Shown here: positions 5,544 to 64,000 of the stretch, one piece after another | Numbering within the stretch: the first letter of the stretch is position 1 | Layout of the letters: each line of letters starts with the position of its first letter | Assembly: GCA_021904315.1 (NCBI GenBank) | Contig: CM038910.1 | Span: forward strand, 20,780,256-20,844,255 | Direction: 5' to 3' | Length of the DNA stretch: 64,000 bases | Origin: Sphagnum magellanicum | Taxonomy: Eukaryota > Streptophyta > Sphagnopsida > Sphagnales > Sphagnaceae | Translations under genes and position numbers: made by a program | Notes under the pieces: generated by a model | Databases searched by the model: none | What the model saw: only the letters and a program-made list of their open reading frames with translations | What the model was told of the DNA's origin: nothing

Positions 5544-7060
5544 TGGTCACACTTGTACTTGTTGGCACCATCCAACAGTTCAGTATCTGTGAATTCAGCA
5601 AGAGCATCCTCCACGAACTTAACGTTGCCTTGGATATCCAGAAGAAGATCCATCATGGGTTCATATCGATTAGATTCATGCAGGCACTGTATACACTTCA
5701 CCTGACAGCAGAACATCAGAACAGCACCCACATTAACCCTCTTCCTCCCCTACATCTCCAAGGATAAAATAGGATTAACTAGTTCTAGAAAAATATTAAT
5801 GTCTGATCAAACAGCAAGAGACCACGCAGATCCAGACTAAAGAAATCCATGACACACCAGATGGACATATGTATGTAGTGGATAGGTCAACCAGAGTACA
5901 GCAGTTCCTGTGTTGGAAAGATATCTTCACTCTAGTCTTGGGACTAATACCTCTGATTGCAGACACCCACCAAAATAGTGGTGAATAAGTGTCGTCTCTT
6001 GAATGGAATCATCAAGAGACTTTTCTGCAATAACCTTGTCCACGCAAATCATTTGCATCAAGTTCATAAACGGCATGTATCATCATCACCAGCAAACCAC
6101 ACACATCAATCAAGGCCATGGGTATGACCTCACAACATGCCAACCCACATGATGACATTCCAGACAACCTCTGCCCACATCAACACAGTGTGTTAGAAAA
6201 ATGCATACCAGTAATGTACCTGCTTGCACTGCTTGGGTCATATTTTCGTTGATTTCCCACATACAAAATAAAAATATTGACCTGCACCCATCTGCTGTTT
6301 CTTCTTAGGCTACACTGCTCTTGGTACTTCTCCCTGCTGCTGCTGTGTCTTGTCTACACTCTTAGTGTGGTTTGCTAGTTCCTCTGCCTGATTTCTGGGT
6401 TTAACTTCCAACATCTGTTTCTTTTAAGGGTTAGCTTCTAGCTCAGCCTTTTGCTGCTGCTGAAGATAAGCTGCTTCTTCCTCAGCCATTTTCTGGCTCT
6501 TAGCCTCCTCGTCCTCCTCAGCCTGACTTCTCGTATCTGCAGCTTCATTCCCAGCCCGCTTCCTCCGTTCAATCTCCAATTCAGCTTGCTTCCTAGCGTC
6601 AGATTCTTCCCCTTCCCATTTCCTGTTTGCAGCTTCAATCTCCACCTGCTTCCTAATGTGAGCTTCATCCTCTGCCTGTTTCCTGTTTGCAGCTTCAAGC
6701 TCCGCTTGCTTCTTGTTTGGAGCTACAAGCTCCGCCCCCTTCCTCTTGTTGACAGCTTCCAACTCTGCATCCTCTCTGAGTTTAACTTCAGACTTCATCT
6801 GCTTTCTGTAGTCACCTTCTCCTCTTACTCCTACTGCTCCTCAACATCTGTGTTCAGCTCTGGAAATGTCTGACTGCTTCAACCTTTTGGATTCCTCTTC
6901 CCACCTGCCGGGCTTGCTCCTCTATTGCCACGCACTGCAGCCTAACAAACTCTTCTTCTCTCGCCTTGTTGGACTTCCGTGAGCACAATAATCACAACAA
7001 ATTGACCGCTATAAGGAGAGGCAACAGCACAGCTGGGATCTCAGAAGAGGAGTCTACATT
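5544..7060 (-). pseudogene. Degraded plant UBP15/16-type ubiquitin-specific protease, copy A
   Basis: It lies about 60 bp downstream of the TRN1-like gene on the same strand. In order: an N-terminal hydrophobic segment (SSEIPAVLLPLLIAVNLL) with an in-frame TGA at 6994-6992; then KAREEEF-type basic/acidic sequence; a coiled-coil ORF (6798-6424); an exon piece ending FGGCLQSE at 5951; and an exon 5701-5544 encoding VKCIQCLHESNRYEPMMDLL and ending NKYKCDQ at a GT donor. These match the zinc-ribbon and palm part of plant MYND-UBPs. The MYND segment and much of the catalytic region are missing, removed by a deletion of about 1.25 kb at about 6062 relative to copy B. Catalytic Cys and His boxes were not found. 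Confidence 0.65.
6424..6798 (-). CDS. Charged coiled-coil ORF within UBP-like locus A
   Basis: 124 codons from an ATG at 6798. It is built of degenerate 10-residue units of the type QAELEAANRK, with many Glu, Lys and Ala and Trp once per array, ending in a QQQQ stretch and EANP. The 30-bp units make it a coding minisatellite that should form a long charged helix. It sits between the N-terminal membrane segment and the missing MYND part of the UBP-like locus, so it may be an expanded insert of that protein rather than a separate gene; its frame differs from that of the membrane segment. Function not recognised. Confidence 0.4.
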   Translation of the reverse strand: MKSEVKLREDAELEAVNKRKGAELVAPNKKQAELEAANRKQAEDEAHIRKQVEIEAANRKWEGEESDARKQAELEIERRKRAGNEAADTRSQAEEDEEAKSQKMAEEEAAYLQQQQKAELEANP

Positions 7061-7122: not shown

Positions 7123-10100
7123 CTAACGTGGACATGGAAATCCATCCAGTTCCCCAACACGCATGCCTTGGTCAAAATGTTTTTGACAGATCCATCCCAA
7201 TTCTCCTGTTTGTCTCCCATGTGTGTCCTTGTAGACCACCCTCTGCAACCCAAATTGTGTTAAAATGACTTTATCCTTCAGAAAGTTCACCAACCATTGC
7301 TCTGCAGAAACACTTTCTGCTGTTCTGATGGCAGATGCCTCATTCCTCACAAGCTTTCCAGGGGTGACAGTGGCCCAGTCTATTGGTGTTTCTTTTAGCA
7401 CACCTTCACCAAGCACAACAACAGCCTTTCCATATTCCATTTTAGGATTTGGAACCATGTTCCCCGGCCCCATTGTAATGTGTGCTCCCACTTGGACAGC
7501 CAACAAAACCCATTTCAACCCCTCCTTCACCAACTCGTGAACTTTCTTCCAATTCTCATCTTGGAGGATCACTTGACAACCAGCTTGTCCTTCAACTATG
7601 TGCTCCTGTCCCTTGTATTCACAAAGTAGATGAAGTTGAAGAGCTTTCATCCCTGGAACCAGTTTTGTGATCAATTTTTGTTTGAAACTGCCATCTCCTG
7701 TTGTGAAGAGTACAATCCGTGGAACTGGGCGTTGTGAGGAGTTTACAATCAAGTTGTGGATGAATCTAGTCACTGGTAAACCTTCATCCCTCAGAAGCTT
7801 GTGAGTATCATGAACAGTATCGTTTGTATTATGAACAACAACTGCTAGGTGTTGAACTTCATGAGCTAGTTCCCTCAGTGCCTGATTCTGCTCTTGTGAA
7901 GGTTCTTCTGTGATCTTCATGTCCAATGTCTTGGAAGAACTTGATGTTGCCCATCCTCTTGTGGTCATAGCCACTTCATCATGGACACCATCAACCTCAT
8001 CAATTTGCAACGCTTGCTTACGTCTTTCCACTACCTCCTCTCTCTCTCTCCTGCCCATAAGCATCACAGCACGTTCATTCTCACGAAGAATCACATTCTC
8101 CCCTTGTTTCAACTCACCCCATGGGTGTTCATATTCATTCCCATGAGAAAAAACATTTCGCTTCAACTCTTCCAAAAGCACAGATTGGCCTTGTCGCTCC
8201 TTGAAAGACATGCAATTTTTCACACACATTGTGCGAATAACACCTTCCACAAGTACAACACCCTGACATCCATCGGTGGCAATACAACGTTCTAGAATTT
8301 TGTCCATAATATGCTCATGAACAATATCTAAAGCGTTGTCAAAACTCTTGGATTTGGAGTGTACCAACACATCAATGTGGGTGCCCACATCTGCATTGTA
8401 ATCCACTACAACTTCTACACCATTGAGCATTATATAAATGAAGTTATTTTTGGGTTCATACAAGGCTCTCATGTTCATGTCCTTCTCCAACGTTAAGAAT
8501 TGGTTGTGCAAAAATACCTGTAGGAACATCAATCAATCGCAGAATCAAAGGCAAAATCAAATGAAGGACCAAATTAACTTGAAATAGAGAGCTTCAGGAC
8601 TGTAGATCATTACAGGGTCTTGCATTAGTCTTCTAAATTATTTGGAATTTAAGTTGGCATTCCCCACATGAGTTTGACCGCAAAGTTCCCTAACTCAACT
8701 ATTCGGGAATGGGAACAAAGTACCTGCAATCGACAAAAGAGACCTCGAGGTATGAATGTATGCTCTGGGTCAGCACATTGGAGCCTCCTTCCGAAGTAGA
8801 TGGAATTCTGACTGACATGTGACCAATTCCATGAGCCTGCTTCTTGATGAATGTCCAAAATTGTTGGGATGAACAATTTGTCAACACCATGAGATGTGGT
8901 TGTGTCCTCAAAACACAACTCTAACCTCAACATAAGGTGCACCAAATTCTCTGGTGTGACATCCAAGGCACTTCCACCATAACCAAGCTCACGAGAAGAT
9001 TTCAGTGAATCAGCCAAAACGTTTATCAAGTATGCCCTCTGTGTGAAACCATCTGGGTCTGTTGCGGCCACCAGTTTCCTACGATCCCAACTTAGCTTGA
9101 TCAGGTGGCCCATCACCCGGTGGCAAAACCAATCCAGATCCACAACTAGAAAGTCAAGATCTTCAAAGTAGATGACATCTCCCGAATTGTGCATGCTTGT
9201 TGCCACTGCTTTACGTCTTGCTTCTACCATACTTCCTTCATCAGTTATTTTGACCAACCCTGGCAAATCTGTTTCCTGGCACAGGTCTGAAAAGGTTTTC
9301 CAATTCATCATCGGACTTTTTGGATTTCTCACCATCCAACCCTTCAAGGTTGATCTCACATTACTGCACACCTTATACACAGGTGGCAATGCTTTGAGAA
9401 GATTTACAATGTTGTCTTCAATAACACTAGCCACATTGCTACCTGATTGAGTAGAGAAGCCCTCGACGGCAATTGGTTCCGACCACACATCTAGCAATTC
9501 TGCAAATTGCTCTTTCAAACTTTCGACACTCCCTTGTGCGAGAGCATCAAGCCCATCAACTTTGTCGGAATGAGTCAAGACCACGATCACCTTTGGTTTG
9601 AAGGAAATTGTTCTTCGACTCTTGGAAGCAATGAATCGAAGCCAATACTCCAACTCTTTCTTGATCTCTATGGGTCGTTTGAGCGTCTCCTTTGAAGGGG
9701 ATCCCTTATCTCTCAATACATATGGACTACAAACTAGAAGGAACAAGGATGGGTTACCTGTGTCGCTTAGATCAGGAAGCATGAAATAATGGAACCCATG
9801 GAACTCTTCCTGACCCCCCATGTCCCAAATAGACCATGTAATCCCTTCACTACTTTTCAAGCTGTGTACCTCAATTCCACGTGTGCGGTGTGTAAGTTGT
9901 TTGCGTCCTTGGATTAGTCGTTGACCCCCATCAATCGTCTTCATCATGAAATCTGTGCATGGATTGAGAATGCTCTTGCTGATCGTGCTTCTGTGTTCAA
10001 TGGAACGGACGACCGCCTTTCGCAAGGTTGTTTTGCCTACATAATTCCACAATAAATAGGTGCATTCATGTGCCATGAACAGAAGATTTCAAAAAAAAAC

Positions 10101-11332
10101 ATTCTACTATAAATCAATCATAAATTATAAGTTCCATGTGACAACATGATTCAGGCAATGACAATGTTTCAAACACAAACACATTGATGTCCTCTAGTTT
10201 AACCAAGAGAGATTTAAGACATACCCGCATATGGAAAGCCGCAAAAAATTACTCTTGCAGATGTTGGCTTGGCCATCTCCAGCTCCTTGGTATGTAACAC
10301 CTTGTACATCTCATTTCTTCGTAGTTGTTCCTTGATGGCCAAACTCTTGCCCGCATGATCCAAAGGAGTTGCACCCAAATTTATATCTTTCAAGGTGAAA
10401 TTGACCAGTAGAACATCCATGATGGCAGGAAACACAGAGCCCTTTACACCATCACAACCAAATAGGCCTAAGGATTCGAGGGAATGGTTTTCTACAAGTG
10501 ATTGTATCAGTTCTTCCGCATCTGATTCACTTCTTAGAGACTTTGTCAAATCAAGATGTTGTATGGAAGAATTTTTCCGAAGCATCCTTGCAAAGGTAGC
10601 ACCAACTGATCTCATAGCAGGAAGGTCCGGTCCTTCAGGACCGGTGAGTATATCAGAAAGTCCCGTAACTCCAAGAGTGGTGAGTGTAGAGTTGGCTTGG
10701 TGCCCATTTTCGTCCATAATCAATGGTTGGACAAGTTCCTCCAAATCTAATTCCCCAGAAAAAAAAGAGGGGTACTTTAATTGAAGAATTTGAAGGGTGT
10801 GATTCATCTTGAGTGCGTTGCCAAAACCAGAATGCTTCTCTCTATCATCATCGTTAGATAGCTCGAGAATGAAACGTTTGAGGCCTATATTATGACAAAG
10901 CATAACCACACATTTGTCCACAAGCGACTTGTACCAAAGATGAGGTTTACAAAACTCAGCACTCACTATGGTATGATTGGTGCAGAGATCTTGCAAAAAC
11001 TGTTCAATAACATCACAGCTAACATATCGTCCAAAATATCCTTTCACATAAATGGCCTTCACATTAGTGCTCTCAACGACTGTAGACACCAATTTCATCA
11101 GATCATCATAAGTTGAAAGATGCCACTCGTCTTCAACATCTCTATCAACTTGCGGTTCCTCAAGCCGGCCTTCGCTAGAATCAGCTTTGCATTGATGATA
11201 TCTCATTTTCAAAGTGATCTCTTCACTTATCGCACCCTTATAAGTAATGTTAAACAATTCCACCACGACATCGCTAGCTGTAAGGATTCTCGAAACCTCT
11301 TGGACAACATCAGTGACGATTGCGTCTGCCAT
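7123..11332 (-). CDS. TRN1-like: TORNADO1-like LRR-Roc-COR (ROCO family) protein, copy A
   Basis: Three exons on the minus strand: 11332-10225, 10036-8724 and 8517-7123, joined by GT-AG introns of 188 and 206 bp, predicting 1271 residues. The start chosen is the ATG at 11332 (MADAIVTDVV); the same frame is open only 9 bp further upstream, through TTG codons. Residues about 90-340 form RI-type leucine-rich repeats. The Walker A motif GFPYAGKT (365-372) spans intron 1. DMGGQ (441-445) is the G3 motif, and THSD (524-527) replaces NKxD as is usual in Roc domains. A COR-like region follows to about residue 807. Exon 3 gives a variable linker and a conserved C-terminal block rich in Trp and Lys. 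Plant TORNADO1/LOP1 has the same order and a similar size (about 1380 residues) and acts in auxin-linked patterning; whether this paralogue does so is unknown. The frame is intact, so it is probably functional. The divergence of its LRRs from copy B suggests a recognition role, by inference. Confidence 0.85.
10037..10224 (-). other. Intron 1 of copy A, splitting the Walker A codon
   Basis: The donor reads GTATGTCT at 10224 and the acceptor ends TGTAG at 10037. It is a phase 1 intron, falling inside the last Gly codon of GFPYAG, so exon 1 gives GFPYA plus one base and exon 2 gives the rest of Gly followed by KTTLRK. The equivalent intron of copy B is 45804-45986. Only the spliced form makes a complete GxxxxGKT. 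Confidence 0.85.
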
Positions 11333-12114: not shown

Positions 12115-13660
12115 TAATATTTGGTTTCACCTTGGTAACCACTTCTCTAGGAAATAGGTCTCATATGTAGGTACACAAGTAACAAAACAGGTACTACAAG
12201 GCAAGTAGGTGGTATATAGTTTATATATTAGTAAGGAACGGCCATTTTGACTACCTACCAAGTGGGTTGTTAGTAGGTAGGCAGTGAAAAATAAAGGAAC
12301 TGAGCTAACCAGCATGGTTAGCAAGGGAACTGAAACCCAACAGAAAACTGTTTCATTATAACTTACCATCCATCCTTCATGGTGCACATCGGTGGGTGCT
12401 AGTTCAATATGGCCCTAATTTGGTGCTCAAATTGCATAATTGAGTGGTTTGCAATTGAATACAATTGAAGGATACATTTTAATTTTCATATTATGCCTCG
12501 TTTCATGTGTGGTGTTCTGCAACTTCCATATTCAACATATTAATAAGCTATCATTTTGTATTGGGAGTGAAGGAGGCTTCTCTCTCTGGCAAGCAGTGTG
12601 CAACTTTCATATTCAACATATTAGTATTCTATCATTCATTACTTGGAGTGAAGGAACTTTCTCTCTCTCTCACAAGCAGTGTTTTCTAGTTTATGATTTT
12701 TTATTTTATTTGTGTAGTAGTGGTGTCTTGATTGTTATGTTCTTTACTGGGTTGTATTTTGGTGCTTTTATTTGCCTTGTATTTCTTGTGGATGGGCTCC
12801 CAATCCCTGCTTTTATATATACAGGGTTTTCCTCCTTTCTTTCTTTTTCAACTTTTTGAAAAGAAATGCTAGTGGTGTGGCTACCACAGTGGAGCAGCTC
12901 TGAAGTATGAGGGATAAATTGTTTTTAAAATCAAAAATATTGAATGACCCCAGTAGACAAATTAAGTATAGCTTTAAGGCTATACACCTAAATTTTTTTC
13001 TACAATCTGCTGACTATACTGGCTAAAATGCAATGACCTGGCAATGTGATATTCACCACGCTCACAAAAAAACAATTAGATATGGGCAATATTTAGGTGC
13101 CAAAGTTGGGTTTACTTTTAGCCTTGGGTGATTACCCAGTTTGGCCAGCTAGAACCTGGTTCCGCCTGGTTCCGATTACCCAGAACCAAATTGGAACCAG
13201 GTCTGATTTTTGGAAAGTTTAAACCCGGACCCAGTTCTGGATTGAAAATGGGAACCCGGACCTGGTTCTAGAACTGGAACCCGGTTTTCAATTGGACCTG
13301 ATATAGATCCTGAACTGGAACCAAGAACCAATACTAGAACCCGAACCACAATTTTTGAAAAATATTCCTTTTGGGGGAAAAAATGGTCTAGAACCAGAGT
13401 TGGTTGGCAATTAACCACTTGTTTCCGACCAAGTTATCCAGAACCATAACCGGGTCTGATTTGCAAAACCAGATTTGGAATTGAAACCTGAATTTTTTCT
13501 TTTTGAGAAACAGACCAGAACCAGACCCGGAGTTCCATTTTTTTTGGAATCAATTTGGGGATGGGATTCATTTTACAAGAACCAAAACTGAAGGTTCTTC
13601 GTGAAAGGCAAAAACCACCCAAGACTTGCTTACTTCGTGTGTATAACTATTTTTTGGCAC
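12115..13660. repeat. Repeat block S, copy 0
   Basis: It is homologous to 20630-22170 and 30350-31890. The order is: a conserved GCCATTTTGACTACCTACC stretch; two units of about 84 bp ending in a CT-rich run and AAGCAGTG (12525-12690); an AT-rich part; then a degenerate GAACCxGG repeat (13140-13620). It has no convincing protein. Partial copies lie at 47900-48210 and 51680-52370. Confidence 0.7.
13140..13620. repeat. Degenerate GAACC/GGTTC-type repeat tract
   Basis: Dense short repeats of GGAACCxGA, GAACCCGG and GGTTCTAGAAC-type words, unevenly spaced, with the same tract in the other two S blocks (21660-22080 and 31370-31810). It reads open in places as PGPGSxFQ-type low-complexity peptide, which is a by-product of the repeat. 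Confidence 0.65.
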
Positions 13661-18049: not shown

Positions 18050-20640
18050 GGGATGATGGCCACTAATGCTCCATCACCACAATAGGGGAAAAAAAGGGTG
18101 GTGAATATTCTACGGATCATGGATTCTGCATAATTTGAAGATGAATTGGCCCAGAACTCGGAACATAGGACTCCAAACTGGCTCAATTCCAAGTGCTGGT
18201 AAACCAGTTATTGTGGCCTCTCACACTTCACCAACTTCCTCCATATGCACCGTACCTAACTCAAAAACTCAAAGGTACATTGTTTCAGATACAATTCATC
18301 TGATCAGATGCATTGATATAATACACTCATGTTTTCCAGTGAATGATTGTCTGGAACTGAAATATTAGTTAACATTTGTCAGAGAAAGTAGGTCAATTGC
18401 AAAAGGCTACAGAGCATGCATTGCCCAGCCCTGGGGCTGTCAATTTGCCACAAATTTTCATTAAAATCCACTGTACACAACAGGGGCCACATCCTGGCTC
18501 CTACACAGGTCGTGGTGTTCAATGGTTACTTTAGGGATTCTCACAAGTACCCTTAAGACACACACCAACACATTTTTACAGAGGTCCTGTCAACATGAAA
18601 CAACAATTTATCAAATGAGTTCAGCAAAGGAGGAGGGCCAGCTCTCTATCTATCTGCCTAAAATTTAAGTGCAACCGTAACTGACCTCAGATAATTTGTA
18701 ATCGACCCATGTATATCATTAAAACTTAAAGCTTCCATCTTAATGCTATAGGGGACTTAACTCCAAAGTTCATATGCAACTTTGCTAAGTTAATTTGTGA
18801 AAAAATCGTTGTTAATTTTTTAAAAAAAATTTAAGAACAATAATTGCTTTAAATTGAATAACTTTTGCTATGTTGGTTCAAAAATTGTGAAATGAAAAAC
18901 TTATAGCCTGTCTCATGGTGGGATTTTTGGTGGTACCCAAAGTGGAGTTGGGTACTTGAGAGTTTGGGAGGGTTATGGTCAATGGTTTCTTTTGGGTGGA
19001 TTTTTGCATTGCGGCAATTAAAAAAACTTACATGCAAATGAAACAAAGATTTTTTTTGGATTTATTTTTGCAAATTTTGCCATATTTCCAGGGGAAATTG
19101 TTAAAAGTTGCCATGTTTAGATATTACATACATAAAAGTTATCAATACAAAACAGAATTTTGAAAAAATATCTACAACCCATCTAGGATAGAAATTTTGA
19201 TGTTGGGTGACTTTCAAAATGCAAGGGGTTTTCTCTTTTGGATTGGGCCAAACACAATAAAAAAATTTTAAAACCTTGAACTTGAAAGCCATCCCCAACC
19301 CATCTAATTGACAAACCCACAAAACAAGGTCTTTCATGTTGAAAAAAAATTAATTATTTTAGAAAATTATGGAAATTAAGGTTTGTTGCATCAAACTTTA
19401 ATATATTGAAATTGGGTTTAATTTTTTAGAATTAAAAAATATTTCTTGAGAAATTGCTAAATTTCTATGTTGAGTTTTGGGTGTCCACAAAGAATTTTAG
19501 AAAGATGATTAAATCTTTATACTTCACATCTTGCTTGTAATGAAACATAGGGAAATCTTTCTAAGGATGATTGCCATTTTTAAAAAAATATTTCTATGAG
19601 TGATAGCCATGAGGCTGCATAAGTCAATCCCTTAAAGAAGCACTGGTCACATGGAGTGTGGAACTTGACATTGACAGAATGCATTAAAGGTATCCATAAA
19701 GTTAGGAACACAGCAGCAGAAGCCTAAGTTTGATTATAAAGGGGGTGAGCTAAAAGAAACCTGCAAAAAAAGTACATCACCATTAAGAGGGTGAAACTCA
19801 AAAAACCATCAATTTTTTGGTGATCTGTCTTCATCCTGTCTTCACCCCTCCTTCCTTTCTCCTAAGGGCCTCTACAGTTGTTACATATATTTTTATTGCT
19901 CCTACATGTCCCGATACTGTAATTATTCTCAACACCTCTGCATTAAATTGCTAAATTTCAACATTTCATACCCAGATTGAATGCAATATCATTACTTTGT
20001 GGATACCACTGATTTGGGGTTGAAAGAGGGGTTTGGGGGTGAAAGGCGGCCCAAAGATAGGGTGAAGATAGGGTGACTTTATGGATATCTTTATGGGCTC
20101 ATGTTTTTCCAACTTTTTCGTTTGTTTTTTAAAAATTATGTTTTGGGCAATCCTGTTATGCATGTATGGGAATAGAATGCGTAAAACACTCCACCTGGGT
20201 TTTTTTTCTCCCTTCATTGCCTAATTTCCAAGTGCTAGTAAACTATATGCAGTTGCCTGGCAGTTCACTGACTTCATTAATGTGGATGGTACTGAACTGT
20301 CACCCTCCACTACAATACAGGACCTCAAGTGTTGCAATGTACCAGTGTGTGTGAATAAGAGATTGTCTGGAACTAATATCATAATTAGAATCTGTCACAC
20401 GAACGAGGTCAGTTTCCGTGTGCAAGCAGCTTGCCTTGCACATCCTTCAGCCCTGGGCCGTGGTTCTTCACCCATTTTCTCCAGGGCACCCCGTAGGCTT
20501 AAACCTAGTTTTTTTCTAACTATGGGGTGGTGGATAGGCTACGTGGGGGTTATAGGTTTTTGTGGATTTTTGTTGTTCCCATCAAGTTTTCACTTTGTCC
20601 TCATCAAGTTCACAATGGGTTCCCCAATGTGTTTATATAT
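18050..20640 (+). repeat. Repeat element R, copy 1
   Basis: The first of four direct copies. It begins with CCAAGTGCTGGTAAACCA-type sequence (about 18195) and ends near the GTTTTCACTTTGTCCTCATC stretch (20590). The two ends contain related direct repeats (see copy 2), giving an LTR-like plan of about 2.5 kb with a non-coding AT-rich interior. The internal frames are low-complexity. Confidence 0.65.
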
Positions 20641-22170
20641 TCGTAAGGAAGGGCCATTTTGACTACCTACCTACTAACAATCTGCTTGTGGGTTGTTAGT
20701 AGGAAGGGAGTGAAAAAGAAAAGCAACTGAGCTAACCACCATGGTTAGCAAGGGAACTGAAACCCAACAGAAAACTGTTTCTTTATCACTTACCATCCAC
20801 CCTTCATGGTCCATGTTGGTGGGTGCTAGTTCAATGTGGCCCTAATTGGGTGCTCAAATTGCATATTGGAGTGGTTTGCAATTGAATACAATTCAAAGCC
20901 ACATTTTTATTTTCATATTATGCCCCTTCTCATATGTGGTGCTCTGCAAGTTCGGTATTCAACATATTGATAATCTATCATTCCTTACTCGGAGTGAAGG
21001 AGGCTTCTCTCTCTTGCAAGCAGTGTGCAACTTCAATATATTAATAATCTATCATTCCTTACTTGGAGTGAAGGAGCCTTCTCTCTCTCTCTCTCTCTCT
21101 CAAGCAGTGTGCAACTTCTGTATTCAACATATTAATATTCTATCGTTCATTACTTGCAGTGAAGGAACCTTCTATCTCTCTCACAAGCAGTGTTTTCTAG
21201 TTTAGGGTCTTCTATTTTATTTGTGTATTAGTGGTGTCTTAGTTGTTATGTTCTTTACTGGGTTGTGTTTTCGTGCTTTTATTTGCCTTGTATTTCTTGT
21301 GGATGGGCTCCCATCCCTGCTACAGGGTTTTCCTTCCTTCTTTCTTTTAAAACCTTTTGAAAAGAAATGCTGGTGTGGGGCTGCCATGGTGGAGCAGCTC
21401 TTAAATATGAGGGATAAATTGCTTTTTTAAAGCAAAAACATTGAATGAGCCCAGTTGTCAAATTAAGCAAAGCTTTAAGGCTACACATTTAAATTTTCTT
21501 CTGCCATCAACTGAGCTATACTTGCTAAAATGCAACGACCAGGAAATGTGATACTTGCCACCCTCACAAACAAACAATTAGATATTGGCAATATTTAGGT
21601 GCCAAAGATGGGTTTACTTTAGTGTTGGGTGGTTACCTGGTTTGGCCCCTTACATTACCCTTGGTTTGGTTCCAGTTACCCAGAACCAAATTGGAACCAG
21701 CTCTTGATTTTTGGAACTAGAACCCAAACCCAGGTTTCAAACTGGAACCTATACCTGGTTCTAGAACTGGTACCAGGTTTTTAATTGGACCTGATACTAG
21801 ATCTGGAACTGGAACCAAGACCCGATTCTAGAACCAGATTCACAATTTCTTTTAAATTATTTCTTTTGGGGAAAAAATGGTCTACAACCAAAGTTAATTG
21901 GCAATTAACCACTGGTTTCAGACCAGAGTTACCCAGAACCATAACCGGGTCTGATTTGCAAAACCAGAATTGGAACCAACACCTGAATTTCCTTTTTCAA
22001 GAACCTTTTGTGGAATCAATATCAGGATCGGATTCATTGTAACATTTTTTCAAGAACCAAAGCCGAAAGTTCTTCCTCAAAGGCAAAAACCACTGGACTC
22101 TGATTTATTTCATGTGGATAACTACTTTTTGGCCCCTCCATCTCATCAGAAGACTACTTTTATTGGTTTT
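20630..22170. repeat. Repeat block S, copy 1
   Basis: Homologous to 12115-13660. It carries three units of about 84 bp (20943-21195), one with an extended CT run (21079-21100), and the GAACC tract at 21660-22080. It directly follows R copy 1 and precedes V copy 1. Confidence 0.7.
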
Positions 22171-27869: not shown

Positions 27870-30350
27870 CTCCATCACCGCAATGGGAATTAAAAGGCTG
27901 TTGAGGATCCTATCGATCATGGATTCTGCAGAATTTGAACATGAATTGGCCATGAACTTGGAAACCCTGGACACTGATAAGAATGTGGGTTTTCATACAG
28001 GACTCCAAACTGGCTCATTTCCAAGTGCTGGTAAACCACTTACAGTCACCTCTCACACTTCACCAACTTCCTCCATATGCACAGTACATAACTCAAACGT
28101 ACATTGTTTCTGATATTATTCATCAGATCAGATCCATTGATATAATACAGTCATGTTTTCCAGTGAATGATTGTCTGCAACTGAAATATTAGTTAACATT
28201 TGTCAGAGAAAGGAGGTCAATTGCAAAAGGCTACAGAGCTTCCATTGCCCATCCCGGTGGCTGTCAGTTTGCCACAAATTTTCTTTAAAATCCACCATAC
28301 CCAACAGGGGCCACATCCTGGCTGCTACACAGGTGGTGATGTTCAATGGTTACTTTAGGGACTCTCACAAGTACCCTTAAGACACATACTAACACATTTT
28401 TACAAAGGTCCTGTCAACATGGAACAACAATTTATAAAATGAGTTCACACAGGAGGAGGGCCAGCTCTCTAGCCATCTGCTTAAAATTTAAGTGCAACCC
28501 CAACTGAACTCAGATAATTTGTAATCGACCCATGTATATCATTAAAACTTAAAACCTTCCATCTTAATACTATCAGGGGGCTTAACTCCAAAGTTCATAT
28601 GGAACTTTGCTTAGTTAATTTGTGAAAAAAAAAATTGTTAAAATTTTTAAAAAATTAAACGAAATAATCGCTTTAAATTGAATAACTTTTGCTCTGTTGG
28701 TTAAAAAATTGTGAAATGAGAAATTTATACCCTGTCTTGTGGTGGGGTTTTTGGTGGTACCCAAAGTGGAGTTGGGTACTTGAGAGTTTGGGAGGGTCAT
28801 GGTCAATGGTTTCTTTTGGGTGAATTTTGCATTGTGGCAATAAAAAAAAAATACATGCAAATGAAACAAAGGTCTTTTTGGGATTTTTTTTGCAAATTTT
28901 GCCATATTTCCAAAGGAAATTGTTAAAAGTTGCCATTTTAGATATTACATACATAAAAGTTATCAATACAAAACAGGATTTTGAAAAAAAATCTACAACC
29001 CATCTAGGATAGAAATTTTGATGTTGGGTGAGTTTCAAAATGTGAGGGGTTTTCTCTTTTGGATTGGGCCAATCTCAATAAAAAATTCAAAAAACCTTGA
29101 AGATGAAACGCATCCCCAATGTCCATCTAATACACATACCCATTTTCTAAAAATATTTCTTCTGAAATTGCTAGATTTCTATGGTTAGTTTTGAGTGTGC
29201 ACAAAGAATTTTAGAAGGATGATTAAATCTTTATACTTCACATCTCGCTTGTAATGAGACTTAGTGAAATCTTTCTAGGGATGATTGCCATTATTAAAAA
29301 ATCTTTCTATGAGTGATAGCCAGTACGCTGCATAACTCAATTCCTTAAAGAAGCACTGATCACATGGAGTGTGGAACTTGACATTGACAGAATGCATTAA
29401 AGGTATCCATACAGTAAGGAACACAACACGGAAGCCCAAGTTTGGTCATAAAGGGGGCGAGCTTAAAAAGAAACCTGTAAAAAAAGTACATTACCATTAA
29501 GGGGGTGAATATCAAAAAACCATCAATTTTTGTGGTGATCTGACTACATCCCCTATTCACCCCTCTTTCCTTGCTCCTAAGGTCATCTAGTGTTGTTACA
29601 TATATTTTTATTGCTCCTACATGTACCGATACTGTAATTATTCTCAAACCCTGTGCATTAAATTGCTAAATTTCAACATTTCATACCCAGATTTAATGCA
29701 ATTTCATTACTTTGTGGATACCACTGATGTGAGGTTGAAAGAGAGGATTGGGGGTGAAAGGAGGCCCAAAGACAGGGTGAAGACAGGGTGCCTTTATGGA
29801 TATCTTTATGGGCTCATGTTTTTCCAACTTTTTCATTTGTTTGTTAAAAATTATGTTTTTGGCAAACCTGTTATGCATGTATGAGAAGAAAATGCATAAA
29901 ACACTTGACCTGGGTATTTTTTTCTCCCTTCATTGACTAATTTCTGAGTGCTAGTTAACTACATGCAGTTCCCTCGCACTTCACCGATTTCATTAATGTG
30001 CATGGTACTGAACTGTCACCCTCCACTACAATACAGGACCTCAAGTGTTTTAATGTACTAGTTTGTGTGAAGAAGTGATTGTCTGGAACTAATATAATAA
30101 TTAGAATCTGTCAGAGGAACCAGCTCAGTTTCAATGGGCAAGCAGATTGCCTTGCACATCCTTCAGCCCTGAGCCCTGGTTCTTCACCCATTTTCTCCAG
30201 GGCACCCCCTAGGCTTAGTCCCAGTTTTTTTCCAACTGGGTGGTGGATAGGCTACGTGGGGGGGTACAGGTTTTTGTGGATTTTTGTTGTTCCCATCAAG
30301 TTTTCACTTTGTCCTCATCAAGTTCACAATGGGTTCCCCAATGTGTTTAT
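27870..30350 (+). repeat. Repeat element R, copy 2
   Basis: The left part, 28010-28290, and the right part, 29935-30215, carry the same series of words in the same order: AGTGCTgGTtAACcAC, CACTTCACC, GATTGTCTGGAACT, a GTCAGAG box, then a TGCCCATCC-like box. They are therefore diverged direct repeats flanking about 1.65 kb. This is the plan of an old LTR-type or terminal-direct-repeat element without coding capacity. Confidence 0.6.
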
Positions 30351-31890
30351 ATGTTGGTAAGGAAGGGCCATTTTGACTACCTACCTACTTACAATTTGAT
30401 TTTGGGTTCTTAGTAGGTAGGGAGTGGAAAGAAGAAGCAACTGAGGTAACCACCATGGTTAGCAAGGGAATTGAAACCCAACATAAAACTGTTTCCTTAT
30501 CACTTACAATCCATCCTTCATGGTGCGTGTAGGTGGATGCTAGTTCAACGTGGCCCCTAATTGGGTGCTCAAATTGCATAATGGACTGGTTTGCAATTGA
30601 ATACAATTGAAGGCCACATTTTTATTTTCATATTATGCTGCTTTTCATGTGTGGTGTTCTGCAACTTTCGTATTCATCATATTAATAACCTATCATTCCT
30701 TAGATTCAGTAAGGGAGCCCTCTCTCTCTCTCTCTCTCTCAAGCAGTGTGCAACTTCCATAGTTAACATATTAATAAGCTATCATTCATTAGACTCAGTC
30801 AGGGAGCCTTCTCTCTCTCTTGCAAGCAGTGTGCAACTTCCCTATTCAACATATTAATAATCTATCATTCCTTACTTGGAGTGAAGGCGCCTTCTCTCTC
30901 TCTCTCACAAGCAGTGTTTTCTAGTTTACGGTCTTCTATTTTATTTGTGTATTTGTTGTGTCTTCAGTGTTATGTTGTTCACAGGGTTGTGTTTTGGTGC
31001 TTTTATTTGCCTTGTATTCCTTGTAGATGGGCTCCCAGCCCTGCTTTTTTATATACAGGGTTTTCCTTCCTTCTTTCTTTTAAAACTTTTTGAAAAGAAA
31101 TGCTGGTGAGAGCAGCTCTTAAATATGAGGGACAATTTGCTTTTTTAAAGTAAAAACATTGAACAAGCCCAGTAGTCAAATTAAGCAAAGCTTTAAGGCT
31201 ACACATTTTAATTTTCTTCTGCCATCAACTGAGCTATACTGGCTAGAATGCAACGACCTGGCAATGTGATACTTGCCACCCTCACAAACAAACAACTGGA
31301 TATGGACAATATTTAGGTGCCAAAGATGGGTTTACTTTAGTGTTGGGTGGTTACCTGGTTTGGCCCCTTAGATTACCCTTGGTTTCGTTCCAATTACCCA
31401 GAACCAATTCGGAACCAGCTCTTGATTTTTGGAACTGGAACCCAAACCGAGGTTTAAAACTGGACCCAGTTCTAGAACAAAAACTGGAACCCAGACCTCG
31501 TTCTAGAACTGGAACGAAGACCCAATTCTAGAACCAGATTCACAATTTTTTGAAAATTATTTCTTTTGGGGAAAGAATTTTCTACAATCAGAGTTAATTG
31601 GCAATTAACCACTGGCTTCAGACCAAAGTTACCCAGAACCATAACCGGGTCTGATTTGCAAAACCGGAATTGGAACCAACACCTCAATTTTCTTTTTCAA
31701 GAACCAGACTGGAACTGGACTTGGAGTTGGATTCATTTGTGGTATCAATATCAGGATTGGATTCATTCTAAATTTTTTTCAAGAACCAAAGCCAAAAGTT
31801 CTTCCTAAAAGGCAAAAACCACTCAACTCTGATTTATTTCATGTGGATAACTACTTTTTGGCCCCTCTATCTCATGAGAAGACTACATGT
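30350..31890. repeat. Repeat block S, copy 2
   Basis: Homologous to the other S blocks. It has three units of about 84 bp with CT runs (30660-30915) and the GAACC tract at 31370-31810. Confidence 0.7.
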
Positions 31891-42952: not shown

Positions 42953-45900
42953 CTAAGGTGGACATGGGAATCCATCCAGTTCCCCAACATAAATGCCTTG
43001 GTCAAAATGTTTTTGACAGATCCATCCCAATTCTCCTGTTTGTCTCCCATGTGTGTCCTTGTAGACTACCCTTTGCAACCCAAATTGTGTCAAAATGTCT
43101 TTATCCTTCAGAAAGTTCACCAACCATTGCTCTGCAGAAACACTCTCTGCTGTTCTGATGGCAGATGCCTCATCCCTCACAAGCTTTCCAGGGGTGACAG
43201 TGGCCCAGTCAATTGGTGGGTCTTTTAGCACACCTTCACCAAGCGCAACAACAGCCTTTCCATATTCCACTTTAGGATTTGGAACCATGTTCCCCAGCCC
43301 CATTGTAATGTGTGCTCCCACTTGGACAGCCAACAAAACCCATTTCAACCCCTCCTTCACCAACTCGTGAACTTTCTTCCAATTCTCATCTTGGAGGATC
43401 ACTTGACAACCAGCTTGTCCTTCAACTATGTGCTCCTGTCCCTTGTATTCACAAAGTAGATGAAGTTGAAGAGCTTTCATCCCTGGAACCAGTTTTGTGA
43501 TCAATTTTTGTTTGAAACTGACATCTCCTGTTGTGAAGAGTACAATGCGTGGAACTTGCCGTTGTGAGGAGTTTACAATCAAGTTGTGGATGAATCTGGT
43601 CAATTGTAAACCTTCTTCCCTCAGAGCTAGTTCTCTCACCTCCTGATTCTGCTCTTGTGAAGGTTCTTGCGTGATGTTCTTCATGTTCACTGATGTCTTG
43701 GAAGAACTTGATGTTGCCCAGCCTCTTGTTACCATAGCAGCTTCATCATGGACACCATCAACCTCATCAATTTGCAACGCTTGTTTACGTCTTTCCACTA
43801 CCTCCTCTCTCTCTCTCCTGCCCATCAGCTTAACAGCAAATTCATTCTCACAAAGAATCACATTCTCCCCTTGTTTCAACGGACACCATGGGTGTTCATA
43901 TTCATCCCCATGAGAAGAAACATTTTGCTTCAACTTTTCCAAAAGCACAGATTGGTCTTGTCGCTTCTTGAAAGACATGCACTTTTTCACACACATTGTG
44001 CGAATAACACCTTCCACAAGTACAACCCCCTGACATCCATCTGTGGCAACACAACGTTCTAGAATTTTGTCCATAATATGCTCATGAACAATATCTAAAG
44101 CGTTGTCAAAACTCTTGGATTCGGAGTGTACCAACACATCAATGTGGGTGCCCACATCTGCATTGTAATCCACCACAACTTCTACACCATTGAGCATTAT
44201 ATAAATGAAGTTATTTTTGGGTTCATACAAGGCTCTCATGTTCATGTCCTTCTCCAACTTTAAGAATTGGTTGTGCAAAAATACCTGTAGGAACATTAAT
44301 CAATCTCAAAATCAAAGGCAAAATCAAATGAAGGACCAAATTAACTTGAAATTGAGAGCTTCAGGAATGTAGATCATTACAGGGTCTTGCATTAGTCTTC
44401 TAAATTATTTGGAATTTAAGTTGGCATTCCCCACATGAGTTTGACCGCAAAGTTCCCCAACTCAACTATTCGGGAATGGGAACAAAGTACCTGCAATCGA
44501 CAAAAGAGACCTCGAGGTATGAATGTATGCTCTGGGTCAGCACATTGGAGCCTCCTTCCGAAGTAGATGGATTTCTGACTGATATGTGACCAATTCCATG
44601 AGCCTGCTGCTTGACCAACATCCAAAATTGTTGGGATGAACAATTTGCCAACACCATGAGACCTGGTTGTGTCCTCAAAACACAACTCTAACCTCAACAT
44701 AAGGTGCACCAAATTCTGTGCTGTGACATCCAAGGCACATCCAACATAACCAAGCTCACGAGAAGATTTCAGTGAATCAACCAAAATGTTTTCCAAGTAT
44801 GCCCTTGATGTGAAACCATCTGGGTTTGTTGCGGTGGCCAGTTTACTGCGATCATCACTTAGCTTGATCAGGTGACCCATCACCCGATGGCAAAACCAAT
44901 CCAGATCCACAACTAGAAAGTCAAGATCTTCAAAGTAGATGACATCTCCCGAATTGTGCATGCTTGTCGCCACTGCTTTTTGCCTTGCTTCTACCATACT
45001 TCCTTCAGCAGTTACTTTGACCAACCCTGGCAAATCTGTTTCCTGGCACAGATCTGAAAAGGTTTTCCAATTCATCATTGGACTTTTTGGATTTCTCACC
45101 ATCCAACCCTTCAAGGCTGATCTCACATCACTGCACACCTTATACACAGGTGGCAATGCTTTGAGAAGAGTTACAATGTTGTCTTCAATAACACTAGCCA
45201 CATTGCTACCTGATTCAGTAGAAAAGCCCTCAACAGCAATTGGTTCCGACCACACATCCAGCAATTCTGCAAATTGCTCTTTCAAACTTGTGACACTCTC
45301 CTGTGCTCGAGCAACAAGCCCAGGGACTTTGTCAGAATGAGTCAAGACCACGATCACCTTTGGTTTGAAGGAAATTGTCCGTCGACTCTTGGAAGCAATG
45401 AATCGAAGCCAATACTCCAACTCTTTCTCAATCTCTATGGGTAGTTTAACCTTCTCCTTTGAAGGGGTTCCCTTGTCTCTCAATACATATGGACTACAAA
45501 CTAGAAGGAACAAGGATGGGTTACCTGTGTCGCTTAGATCAGGAAGCATGAAATAATGGAACCCATGGAACTCTTCCTGACCCCCCATGTCCCAAATAGA
45601 CCATCTAATCCCTTCACTACTTTTCAAGCTATGTACCTCAATTCCACGTGTGCGGTGTGTAAGTTGTTTGCCTCCTTGGATTAGCCGTTGACCCCCATCA
45701 ATCTTCTTCATCATGAAGTCTTTGCAGGGATTGAGAATGCTCTTGCTGATCATGCTTCTGTGTTCAATGGAACGGACCACTGCCTTTCGCAAGGTTGTTT
45801 TGCCTACATAATTCCACAATAAACAGGTGCATTCATGTGCCAGAAACAGAAGATGCAAAAATAAGATTCTACTATGAATCAGTCATAAATAATGTTCATG

Positions 45901-47103
45901 TGACAACATGATTCAGGCAACGACAAAGTTTCAAACACAAACACATTGATGTCCTCTAGTTCAACCAAGATAGATTTAAGACATACCGGCATATGGAAAG
46001 CCGCAAAAAATTACTCTTGCAGATGTTGGCTCGGCCATCTCCAGCTCCTTGAGATGTAACTTCTTGTACATCTCATTTTTTCGTAGTTGTTCCTTGATGG
46101 CCAAACCCTTGCCCTCATGATCCAAAGGAGTTCCACCCAATTGTATATCTTTCAAGGTGAAATTGACCAGTAGAACATCCATGATGGCAGGAAACACAGA
46201 GCCCTTTACACCAGCACAACCACGTAGGTTTAAGGTTTCGAGGGAATGGTTTTCTACAAGTGATTGTATCAGTTCTTGCGCATCTGATTCACTAGCTAGA
46301 GAATCTATCCAAGAAAGAGACTTTATGGAAGAATTTTTCCGAAGCATCCTTGCAAAGTTAGCACCAACTGAGCTCATAGCAGGAGTCATCCTTGCAGAGG
46401 TAACACCAACTGAGTCCATATCAAGAAGTTCCTTAATGCCAAGAGCGGTGAGTGTAGAGTTGGCTTGGTGCCCATTTTCGTCCATAATCAATGGTTGGAC
46501 AAGTTCCTCCAAATCTAATTCCATACGATTCGGCATGCCTAATTGAAGATGTTGAAGGGTGTGATTCATCTTGAGTGCGTTGCCAAAACCAGAATGCTTC
46601 GTTGTACCTTCAATTCCGAACAGCTGGAGACTGAAACGTTTGAGGCCTGTATTATGACAAAGCATATCCGCAAATTTGTCCAACACATCAATCGGCGTGT
46701 TTCGAGGAGCTATTAGAGAAAACACAGCAGTCACTATGGTATGATTGGTGTAGAGACCTTGCAAAAACTGTCCAATAACATCATGGGTATCTGCTCTAGA
46801 ATCGTCAGACACAAAAAGGGCTTTCACATTAGTGCTCTCGAGGACTATAGACACCAATTCCTTCGAATCATCCCCTCCTGAAAGACTCCACTTGCGTTGA
46901 ACATCTCCATCAACTTGTGGTTCCTCAAGCCAGCCTTCGCTAGAATCAGCTTTGCATTCATGATATGTCATATGCAATTTCATATTTTCCCAAGTGGGAC
47001 CATATTTTTTAAGATTAATTTTAAGCTCTTCCACCACGACATCACTAGCTGTAAGGATTCTCGAAACTTCTTGGACAACATCAATGACGATTACGTCTGC
47101 CAT
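42953..47103 (-). CDS. TRN1-like: TORNADO1-like LRR-Roc-COR (ROCO family) protein, copy B
   Basis: Exons 47103-45987, 45803-44491 and 44284-42953, with GT-AG introns of 183 and 206 bp, predict 1253 residues. Intron positions and phases (1 and 0) match copy A. Walker A GFPYAGKT is at 368-375 across intron 1, DMGGQ at 444-448 and THSD at 527-530. By eye about nine in ten exon 2 residues match copy A, but the LRR exon differs strongly at beta-strand positions. Two in-frame length changes set it apart: a direct duplication of about 42 bp in the LRR exon (46346-46430), and loss of 23 residues in the exon 3 linker (near 43625) that A has and C has in similar form. The start is the ATG at 47103 (MADVIVIDVV). 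The frame is undamaged, so it is probably functional. The role beyond a ROCO-type GTPase with an LRR sensor is not known. Confidence 0.85.
45804..45986 (-). other. Intron 1 of copy B, splitting the Walker A codon
   Basis: A GT-AG intron with the same donor (GTATGTCT), acceptor (TGTAG) and phase 1 as copy A. Without splicing the frame ends after two codons at a TAA, so an intron-retained transcript would make an LRR-only protein without GTPase. Confidence 0.85.
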
Positions 47104-47780: not shown

Positions 47781-48234
47781 AGAGAAACCCTACTGTCCAG
47801 CTCTCTGATTGGGGAGCCACAGTGAACCGGCACCCACCAACGCACCATCCACTGGATGCCCGATATTACTCAGTTTGTGGATGAAACTGAACTGAGTTAA
47901 TATTTGGTTTGACCTTGGTAACCAATTCTCTAGGAAATAGGTTTCATATATAGGTACATAGGTCTCAAAACATGTAACTACGAGGCAAGTAGGTGGACTA
48001 TAGTATATAAATTGGTAAGGAAGGGCCGTTTTGACTACAATCCTACTAACAACCTGCTTGTGGGTTGTTAGCAGATAGGCAGTGGAAAGAAAAAAGCAAC
48101 TGAGCTAACCACCATGGTTAGCAAGGGAACTGGAACCCAACAGATGACTGTTTCCTTATCACTTACCATCCATCCTTCATTGTGTGCGTCGGTGGGTGCT
48201 ATAGTTCAATGTGGCCGTATTTTAGTAGAGCATG

Positions 48235-61627: not shown

Positions 61628-64000
61628 CTAAGGTGGAGATGGAAATCCATCCAGTTCCTCAACACGCATGCCTTGGTCAAAATGTTTTTGACAGATCCAT
61701 CCCAATTCTCCTGTTTGTCTCCCATGTGTGTCCTTGTAGACCACCCTCTGCAACCCAAATTGTGTTAAAATGACTTTATCCTTCAGGAAGTCCACCAACC
61801 ACTGCTCTGCAGACATACTTTCTGCTGTTCTGATGGCAGATGCCTCATCCCTCACAAGCTTTCCAGGGGTGACAGTGGCCCAGTCTATTGGTGGCTGTTT
61901 TAGCACACCTTCACCAAACGCAACAACAGCCTTTCCATATTCTATTTTAGGATTTGGAACCACGTTCCCCAGCCCCATTGTAATGTGTGCTCCAACTTGG
62001 ACAGCCAACAAAACCCATTTCAACCCCTCCTTCACCAACTCGTGAACTTTCTTCCAATTCTCATCTTGGAGGATCACTTGACAACCAGCTTGTCCTTCAA
62101 CCATGTGCTCCTGTCCCTTGTATTCACAAAGTAGATGAAGTTGAAGAGCTTTCATCCCTGGAACCAGTTTTGTGATCAATTTTTGTTTGAAACTAGCATC
62201 TTGTGTGGTCAAGAGTACAATGCGTGGAACTTGCCGTTGTGAGGAGTTCAAGATCAAGTCGCGTATGAGTCTGGTAACACTCAAAACATCATTTTTGACA
62301 AGCTTGTGCATATCATACATGAGATTGTGCGTATCATGAACAACAGTTGATAGCTGCTGGATTTCACATGCTAATTCACCCACTGGTTTGTCTTGATGCT
62401 GGGCTGATGGATCAAGCTCTTGTATCTCTCCTTGCAACCTGTTTGTCCCCGTCAATAGATCACTTCGAGTGTAAATGGTCATGTGCTGATTATTGGACCG
62501 AGGCTTCAAGTAGGAGCCTGATATGCTGGAAGAACTTGAACTCGGCAACCATTCTGTTGAGATTACAGTGGACTGATCCTGATGGGCACCACCAATCGCA
62601 ATTATACCCTGCAATCCTCTTCGCACCACATCCTCTCTCTCTCTCGTCCCCATAAGGTTCATGGCAGATTCACAAGCTACATCAAGAATAACATTTTTCC
62701 CTTGTCTCAACTCATCCCATGGGTGTTGGTAGCCAATCCCATGAGAAAGAACCGCTTGCTTCAACTCTTCTAAAAGCACTGCTTGGCCTTGTCGCTCCCT
62801 GAAAGACATGCGCTGTTTCACGCACTCTGTACGAATGACTCCCTCCACAAGTGCAACCCCTTGACATCCATCTGCAGCAGCACAGCGTTCTCGAATTTTT
62901 TCTATAATATGCCCATGAACAATATGGAGAGCTTCATCAAAACTCTTCTCATGTGAGCATACCAACACATCGATGTGGGTGCCCACATTTGCATTGTAAT
63001 CCATTACAATTTCCACTCCATTGAGCATTACATAAATGAAATCTCTTTTGGGTTTGTACACTGCTCTCATTTCCTTATCCACCTTCAAGAAGTTGTGCAA
63101 AACTACCTGGAGGAATAACAATCTCAAAATCAAATGCCAAATCACATGAAGTAGGATCAAATTAACTTGAAATGGACAGCTTCCATAATGCAGGATATAC
63201 GGTCTTGCATCAATCTTCTAGATTACTTGGGGTGTAAGTTTTCACTCCCAACTAGTTTGGCCAGAAAGTTTCTCCACTGCAATTGACCAGGAATGGTAAC
63301 AAAAGTACCTGCAGTCGACAAAAAAAACCTTGCAGTATGAAGGTGCAAATTGGGTCATCACATTGGAGCCTCCTTCCAAAGTAGATGGAGCTCTTGTTCT
63401 GATTGTTTGGTGACCAATTCCATGAGCCTACTGCTTGACTAATGTCCAAAATTGTTGGGATGAACAAGTTCCCAACACCATGAGACCTGGTTGTGTCCTC
63501 AAAACACAACTCTAACCTCAACATAAGGTGCACCAATTTCTCTGGTGTGACATCCAAGGCACTTACACCATAACCAAGCTCACGAGAAGATTTCAGTGAG
63601 TCAGCCAAAACTTTTTCCAAGTATGCCCTTGATGTGAAACCATCTGGGTCTGTTGCAGAGACCAGTTTACTGCGATCACCACTTAGCTTGATGAGGTAGC
63701 CCATCACGCGATGGCAAAACCAATCCAGATCCACAACTAGAAAGTCAAGATCTTCAAAGTAGATGACATCTCCTGAATTGTGCATGCTAGTTGCCACTGC
63801 TTTTCGCCTTGCTTCTATCATACTTCCTTCAACATTTGCTTTGACCAACCCTCGCAAATCTGTTTCCTGGCACAGGTCTGAAAAGGTTTTCCAATTCATC
63901 ATCGGACTTTTTGGATTTCTCACCATCCAACCCTTCAAGGCTGATCTCACATTACTGCACACCTTATACACAGGTGGCAATGCTTTGAGAAGATTTACAA
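61628..64000 (-). CDS. TRN1-like: TORNADO1-like LRR-Roc-COR protein, copy C (5' part outside window)
   Basis: The visible part is the 3' end of exon 2 (64000-63309, running off the window) and all of exon 3 (63106-61628), with a 202-bp GT-AG intron between. About 722 residues are visible; the LRR exon and P-loop lie beyond position 64000. Exon 2 keeps the COR-region signature seen in A and B (VVDLDWFCHRVMG with Y for H after it). Exon 3 encodes 492 residues, longer than in A (464) or B (443), mainly through a longer Ser/Gln-rich linker at about 62300-62620. From about 62215 to the stop it is almost identical to A and B, whereas 62215-63420 is clearly diverged, so the gene is a mosaic. No frame damage is visible. 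Confidence 0.8.

Follow-up and report, generated by a model that had tools for sequence, protein, structure and literature searches.

The genome of the peat moss Sphagnum magellanicum carries a tandem array of genes that combine leucine-rich repeats (LRR) with a Roc GTPase and a COR domain (LRR-Roc-COR, or ROCO, genes), and part of this array lies in the 64,000-nucleotide stretch analysed here (the window; C4:20780256-20844255 of an assembly with 438,994,042 bases in 31 contigs). We consider it probable that the array evolves like the NLR resistance genes of plants and encodes NLR-like receptors with a diversifying concave LRR face. Positive selection is detected in the LRR exon and falls on defined positions of the repeat motif, the copies are mosaic, and the same pattern is found in four arrays of this genome. 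Gene A, on the reverse strand of the window, has three exons, whose borders were predicted from GT/AG sites and reading frames (all gene models are from DNA alone). Exon 1 (10225..11332) encodes an N-terminal region and an LRR domain with eight recognised repeats, as judged from the reading frame, the alignment and a structure model; its ATG at 11332, its frame and the GT donor next to its final base at 10225 agree exactly with the coordinates given in a first-pass annotation of this DNA. Exon 2 (8724..10036) holds the second half of the P-loop (GKTT), the Roc GTPase and COR-A, assigned from Pfam matches and from profile matches to Roc structures, and exon 3 (7123..8517), delimited by frame reading and comparison of copies, encodes a C-terminal region that is one of two exchangeable types in the array. 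The intron after exon 1 is in phase 1 and splits the P-loop into GFPYAG (exon 1) and KTT (exon 2). Summing the exon coordinates gives a predicted protein of 369 + 1 + 437 + 464 = 1271 residues.

Gene A and 11 close copies occupy C4:20.56-20.92 Mb (12 genes in 360 kb, L009-L020), and the copies show 65-79% exon-1 identity to gene A over long matches and 83-90% exon-2 protein identity. Three further sequences on C4, the outgroup L021, L022 with its many stops and the fragment L023, were excluded from all statistics of this array. Gene A and gene B, the next copy in the window, are 68.5-70% identical in exon 1 and 90% identical in exon 2. The first-pass annotation had put exon 2 at about nine residues in ten alike, which the measured value bears out, and the conserved framework blocks and three A/B contrasts that it quoted from exon 1 are all present in the A/B alignment. 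The ratio of nonsynonymous to synonymous changes (dN/dS, Nei-Gojobori method), calculated for the 66 pairs of the 12 genes, has a median of 1.24 in exon 1 and exceeds 1 in 57 pairs, whereas in exon 2 the median is 0.58 and a single pair exceeds 1. The exon-1 median dS is 0.136. Exon 3 has a median of 0.57 among pairs of eight genes, its alignment leaving out L012, L015, L017 and L020; exon 1 of L020 was used from about codon 43. For gene A versus gene B, the ratios are 1.73, 0.45 and 0.52 in exons 1, 2 and 3, respectively.

The eight repeats were recognised by a strand motif, and each motif segment overlaps a predicted strand. From the N-terminus, with coordinates on the reverse strand of the window, these segments are R1 NVKAIYVKGY (residues 90-99; 11036..11065; predicted strand 93-99), R2 TIVSAEFCKP (121-130; 10943..10972; strand 124-128), R3 GLKRFILELS (150-159; 10856..10885; strand 153-157), R4 TLQILQLKYP (179-188; 10769..10798; strand 182-188), R5 TLTTLGVTGL (216-225; 10658..10687; strand 219-225), R6 SIQHLDLTKS (256-265; 10538..10567; strand 259-261), R7 SLESLGLFGC (284-293; 10454..10483; strand 287-289) and R8 TLKDINLGAT (313-322; 10367..10396; strand 316-318, at the low-confidence end of the model). 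The AlphaFold2 model of exon 1, built from the A and B sequences, has a mean predicted local distance difference test score (pLDDT) of 66 and a predicted template modelling score (pTM) of 0.71; it consists of strand-helix units, with the strands falling on the eight motif segments, and is of poor quality at residues 227-239 and beyond 320. In a Foldseek search with this model, the best 50 rows were mostly ribonuclease-inhibitor-like LRR proteins (NLRP, NLRC4, ribonuclease inhibitor and CARMIL), and Pfam LRR scores for exon 1 were weak and under the cut-off. According to the model, the LRR domain is a beta-alpha solenoid of the ribonuclease-inhibitor type with parallel xLxLxx strands. No signal peptide is evident by eye in the N-terminus, which suggests a cytosolic location. 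A second variable patch, which the site model described below also flags, is found at residues 30-42 of gene A (about 11207-11245), in an N-terminal beta region before the LRRs.

We defined as exposed the five x positions of each of the eight repeats (40 xLxLxxx codons) and as core 24 hydrophobic positions; in the C4 array, these positions were fixed after the alignment had been seen. The dN/dS ratio at the 40 exposed codons is 2.34 (bootstrap 1.64-3.56), clearly above 1 at the sites where the first-pass annotation had expected selection. The proportion of nonsynonymous differences (pN) at these codons is 0.403, and among 20,000 random sets of 40 columns drawn from the 239 LRR columns the mean is 0.162 and the maximum 0.283. 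Because the variable sites lie on predicted strands and alternate with conserved hydrophobic positions, we expect them to be exposed to solvent, on the concave face of the solenoid. The claim of ligand-facing diversification in the first-pass annotation therefore stands with regard to selection at the strand x positions of a predicted solenoid, positions whose exposure on the concave face is itself a prediction from their alternation.

Codon site models give the same contrast between exons. For exon 1 of the C4 array, twice the log-likelihood difference between models M7 and M8 is 374 with one tree, with a positive class of omega 6.5 in 20% of the sites; it is 222 with eight segment trees and 198.5 when L015 and L020 are also left out. 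For exon 2, the value is 40 with one tree and falls to 4.8 (P = 0.09) with eight segments, so recombination can explain the exon-2 signal. The M8-type comparison of the two exons that the first-pass annotation had recommended thus rejects neutrality for exon 1 but not for exon 2. With every column within three codons of a gap masked, which leaves 288 of 401 codons, exon 1 still gives 236 with one tree and 151 with six segments; an alignment artefact, a possibility tested in the C4 array only, is therefore rejected. The M1a/M2a comparison gives 366 with one tree and 222 with eight segments. It was calibrated by M1a nulls simulated with the real gap pattern from the C4 exon-1 data (10 of each kind). 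Nulls from one tree reached at most 1.5 in the one-tree fit and 1.7 in the six-segment fit, and recombinant nulls, simulated on eight different trees, at most 23 and 8.4, respectively. A recombination artefact is likewise rejected for exon 1, since segment trees keep the signal in all four arrays, far above the recombinant nulls of C4. Under the segmented M8 model, 48 sites have a posterior above 0.95 (plain empirical Bayes), and these include 20 of the 40 motif x positions and none of the 24 core positions.

It is also evident that the C4 copies are recombination mosaics. For most copies, the nearest relative switches along exon 1, intron 1, exon 2 and intron 2, and only L017 and L018 are close partners nearly throughout. 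Eight segment trees raise the M0 likelihood of exon 1 by 544 units, and six segments gained 57 to 91 units in the one-tree nulls. Median divergence is 0.062 in intron 1, 0.084 in the 600 upstream bases and 0.254 in intron 2, the last value being explained by the existence of two intron-2 types. One type of intron 2 and exon 3 is carried by L009, L013, L014 and L019 (and by L015, from match and divergence data) and the other by the remaining copies. Among the eight genes compared, exons 3 of one type are 89-95% identical to each other and 68-74% identical to those of the other type; both types are 64-65% identical to L021. As the two types are joined to the same LRR-Roc genes, the C-terminal part seems to have been exchanged as a module, independently of the LRR.

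To three other ROCO arrays, on C2, C12 and C18, the same motif offsets were applied by regular expression; in C12, three hand anchors were added after the sequences had been seen, and some repeats were missed by the expression. In C2, dN/dS is above 1 in 10 of 15 exon-1 pairs (with one more at 1.00) and in none of 15 exon-2 pairs; in exon 1 it is 2.10 (1.25-3.91) at exposed, 0.22 at core and 0.75 at other codons, and the segmented M7/M8 value is 84.5. Exon 1 is truncated here by the edge of the DNA analysed. L027 (22.48 Mb) was unused, the near copy L026 was kept in the 15 pairs and in the likelihood analysis and left out of the site counts, and L024, which has an exon-1 stop, was used after the stop in pairs and site counts and excluded from the exon-1 likelihood analysis. 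In C12, where exon 2 shares about 35% identity with that of gene A, ratios are above 1 in 8 of 10 exon-1 pairs and 0 of 10 exon-2 pairs; exposed codons reach 2.06 (1.33-3.53) and core codons 0.16, and segmented M7/M8 gives 110. Five of its seven genes were used, with one stop each in exons 1 and 2 of L035 treated as a gap, and L037 is without several repeats. C18 shows ratios above 1 in 8 of 10 exon-1 pairs (one more at 1.00), 3.04 (1.64-6.99) at exposed and 0.29 at core codons, and a segmented M7/M8 value of 284. This array is represented by five of nine genes, and its motif sites were pooled over the five rows; at the limits of the DNA analysed, exon 1 of L042 and L043 lacks its 5' end and exon 2 of L042 its 3' end. 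The C18 genes L039-L043 contain 6, 6, 6, 8 and 7 motif units, differences that apparently arose by duplication within the exon. In all four arrays, the recognised LRRs share one open frame (with stops in L035 and L024; exons further upstream were not sought). Residue diversity, averaged over units, is also alike among the arrays. The hydrophobic offsets 1, 4 and 6 vary little, and diversity is high at offsets 5, 7, 8, 9 and 10, at 3 except in C12, and in C4 as far as offset 13.

The P-loop, DxxGQE and THxD motifs are hallmarks of Roc GTPases, and the moss genes have GFPYAGKTT (over the exon 1/2 junction in gene A), WDMGGQE and THSDK. All seven exon-2 proteins scanned match Pfam Roc (best E 3.2e-6) and, directly after it, Pfam COR-A (best E 3.8e-7), the matches of gene A being under the gathering cut-off for Roc (20 vs 27 bits) and below the cut-off for COR-A (19.1 vs 35.3 bits). 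A profile of the seven proteins weakly matches the Roc-type chains 4wnr (E 0.00013), 3dpu (E 0.00037) and 6hlu (E 0.0029) over a best stretch of only about 40 residues of Roc; LRRK2 entries in the same search are at E 0.04 or weaker. We take the sources of the Roc structures to be LRRK2 and the Roco proteins of Chlorobium and Methanosarcina. Modelling exon 2 by itself with AlphaFold2, from two sequences, gave a structure of unusable quality (pLDDT 37). In gene A, Pfam found no NB-ARC in exon 2 up to E 1, no kinase domain in exons 1-3 and no recognised family in exon 3. On the Roc and COR matches in their sequences, the genes are classed as ROCO (LRR-Roc-COR).

A whole-genome search with exon 2 gave at least 88 match rows, of which at least 67 cover 347 or more of the 437 residues, and 58 of these 67 are stop-free (counted by hand, as lower bounds); matches occur on C4, C8, C2, C12, C18 and further contigs. 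At least 125 NB-ARC matches were found in the same genome. On C4, two more distant genes lie at 21.06 and 23.55 Mb. Eight of the 12 array copies are open across the matched parts of the three exons, and L012, L015, L017 and L020 are broken by frameshifts or stops; together with a fragment at C4:20896297-20897066, the broken copies point to birth-and-death turnover. Within the window, sequence matches to gene A, with an A/B alignment for its exon 1, place gene B on the reverse strand with exon 1 (LRR) at 45987..47103, exon 2 (Roc-COR-A) at 44491..45803 and an exon 3 of the same type as in gene A at 42953..44284. Gene C, similarly placed on the same strand, has its exon 2 truncated by the window end (63309..64000), an exon 3 of the other type at 61628..63106 and its exon 1 beyond the window at C4:20845065-20846131. 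Downstream of genes A, B and C, there is one copy each of a charged, coil-like open reading frame (6424-6840, 42284-42670 and 60929-61345), which is overlapped by an open frame on the opposite strand; a Pfam scan of it gave nothing convincing, and it could represent either an additional exon or a degenerate unit of its own. Spacer DNA between A and B and beyond is repeated at spacings of about 8-20 kb (12285-13511, 18178-22005, 28010-31705, 36564-38908, 48085-49088 and 56309-57549), and one stretch, at about 48.2-49.1 kb, is inverted. Inspection by eye of the open reading frames of these repeats, for which no family search was made, revealed no coding content.

Plant NLR genes form tandem clusters with turnover and gene conversion. 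The moss array resembles them in being clustered and recombining and in diversifying at the LRR beta-sheet, but its switch is Roc-COR instead of NB-ARC and its LRR is N-terminal. TORNADO1 (TRN1/LOP1) of flowering plants is a conserved developmental protein of LRR-Roc-COR architecture, and the moss genes share this architecture. In NLRs, diversifying selection on the LRR beta-sheet is on record (stated in PMC11378527, Teng 2024). Brown algal LRR-ROCO genes, which encode candidate immune receptors and on which that paper cites Zambounis 2012, show positive selection on the concave face at sites 14, 16, 18 and 19 of a 23-residue repeat, and each of their LRRs is a 72-bp exon of its own, subject to shuffling and alternative splicing (PMC11378527). 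The moss genes share with them the LRR-ROC-COR order, membership of an expanded family and protein size (1271 residues from the predicted exons here, a mean of 1241 there). If the two leucines of LxL are taken as sites 15 and 17, as the algal consensus suggests, we place the selected algal sites at offsets 3, 5, 7 and 8 of the moss motif. Unlike the algal genes, with one LRR per exon and exon shuffling, the moss genes have all recognised LRRs in one predicted exon, within which repeats are gained or lost, and they also change through substitutions and gene conversion; the moss LRR is also longer and ribonuclease-inhibitor-like. The count of at least 67 near-full-length Roc-COR matches in the moss can be set beside a top count of 47 among four brown algae (PMC11378527). 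Concave-face diversification of the LRR is hence already known for ROCO genes, and the suggestion in the first-pass annotation that it would be new for a ROCO-type family does not hold in view of the brown algal genes. For land plants, limited literature searches returned, among the matches listed, no report of diversifying LRR-ROCO genes and no paper joining "ROCO protein" and "Sphagnum".

Several observations weigh against reading the array as one of NLR-like receptors. The selection tests compare paralogues of one genome, and they were run with our own codon likelihood program (M0, M1a, M2a, M7, M8a and M8), not PAML, with branch lengths taken from M0 and then scaled. In C4, the 337 other exon-1 codons have a dN/dS of 1.07 (0.83-1.38), which is indistinguishable from neutral and makes constraint look loose by this ratio; the corresponding values are 1.16 in C12 and 1.08 in C18, and the rest of exon 1 may thus be under relaxed constraint. 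At the 24 core positions of C4, pN is 0.051 and the synonymous proportion pS is 0.050 (ratio 1.02); with pS as low as pN, the ratio alone is no proof of constraint, though the core changes little. Synonymous divergence is higher at exposed codons than elsewhere (dS 0.25 vs 0.12), an excess that multiple hits could produce as an artefact or that could mean that the variants are older. Of the 48 sites called by M8, 28 are outside the motif x positions; by our placing, 21 of these 28 are in the loops after strands R1-R5 or in the N-terminal patch (here residues 32-42). In exon 2, a segmented signal persists weakly in C2, C12 and C18 (9.8, 11.0 and 14.5), and 3 of 10 C18 pairs exceed 1, with one more at 1.00. 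These three likelihood values are small but reach nominal significance and lie a little over the top segmented C4 null of 8.4, so weak selection on exon 2 is possible. Finally, the Pfam scan of gene A revealed no effector domain, and self-recognition or recognition of symbionts could leave the same signs.

A variable, predicted concave LRR face, a conserved GTPase switch and clustered, recombining genes together have the make-up of a recognition receptor. In the mechanism that we favour, diversifying selection would exchange residues of the beta-sheet (xLxLxxx) that are predicted to face the solvent, together with residues in the loops behind each strand. The LRR core shows little change and the Roc-COR exon is kept conserved. 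Gene duplication, conversion among the copies and shifts in the number of repeats would reassort the variants. The products would be cytosolic receptors binding fast-changing ligands on the concave face, and, by analogy with NLRs, microbial ligands are the most likely driver. Ligand binding would switch the Roc-COR GTPase, and the C-terminal region would relay the signal.

Among the alternatives, the same receptors might tell self from non-self in mating or clonal recognition, with selection for rarity, instead of detecting microbes. Diversifying selection, many paralogues and mosaic recombination suit any recognition system; however, near-full-length matches on many contigs and broken copies in the array are more like an immune repertoire than one locus, and the N-terminus shows no signal peptide by eye, so we regard this explanation as rather unlikely. 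Less probable again is that the proteins are tuned inhibitors or decoys, whose ribonuclease-inhibitor-like LRR would bind pathogen enzymes or effectors directly without signalling: the LRR model does match ribonuclease inhibitor and NLR LRR domains, but the Roc-COR exon is conserved in the seven aligned members, all of which match Roc and COR-A, and this conservation suggests that GTPase switching is needed. We give little credence to developmental TORNADO1-type proteins whose paralogues have become subfunctionalised toward different endogenous partners; the shared architecture and the compatibility of endogenous ligands with the data speak for them, and concave-face selection in four arrays is unlike a developmental gene. 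An explanation without any positive selection, in which the LRR exon is under relaxed constraint or becoming a pseudogene and gene conversion keeps the exon-2 copies alike, fits the four broken copies among 12, the heavy recombination of the array and the near-neutral ratio outside the motif, but is rejected as the whole cause and is very improbable, because dN/dS at exposed codons is above 1 and not just near it, the core changes little (pN about 0.05), the signal survives both the use of segment trees and the removal of L015 and L020, and the pattern is repeated in three arrays with core ratios of 0.16-0.29.

Internal immunity of plants is usually framed through NB-ARC NLRs. With dozens of moss ROCO genes bearing, as known immune receptors do, a fast-changing predicted recognition surface, our results suggest a second set of candidate receptors for internal immunity, one that has received little notice. 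We lean, by a little, towards the view that the immune receptors of peat moss include, beside its NLRs, a second class that is probably cytosolic and has the scale of a repertoire, namely dozens of LRR-ROCO proteins. These would diversify apparently the same solvent-facing LRR positions as the ROCO proteins of brown algae, but through substitutions, gene conversion and a changing number of repeats inside a single exon, and their C-terminal exon would be swapped as a module. If this is true, land plants, in parallel to brown algae, would have joined a diversifying LRR to a different GTPase switch. The array gives concrete genes and residues with which recognition in peat moss may be probed, and convergence between unrelated lineages becomes testable.
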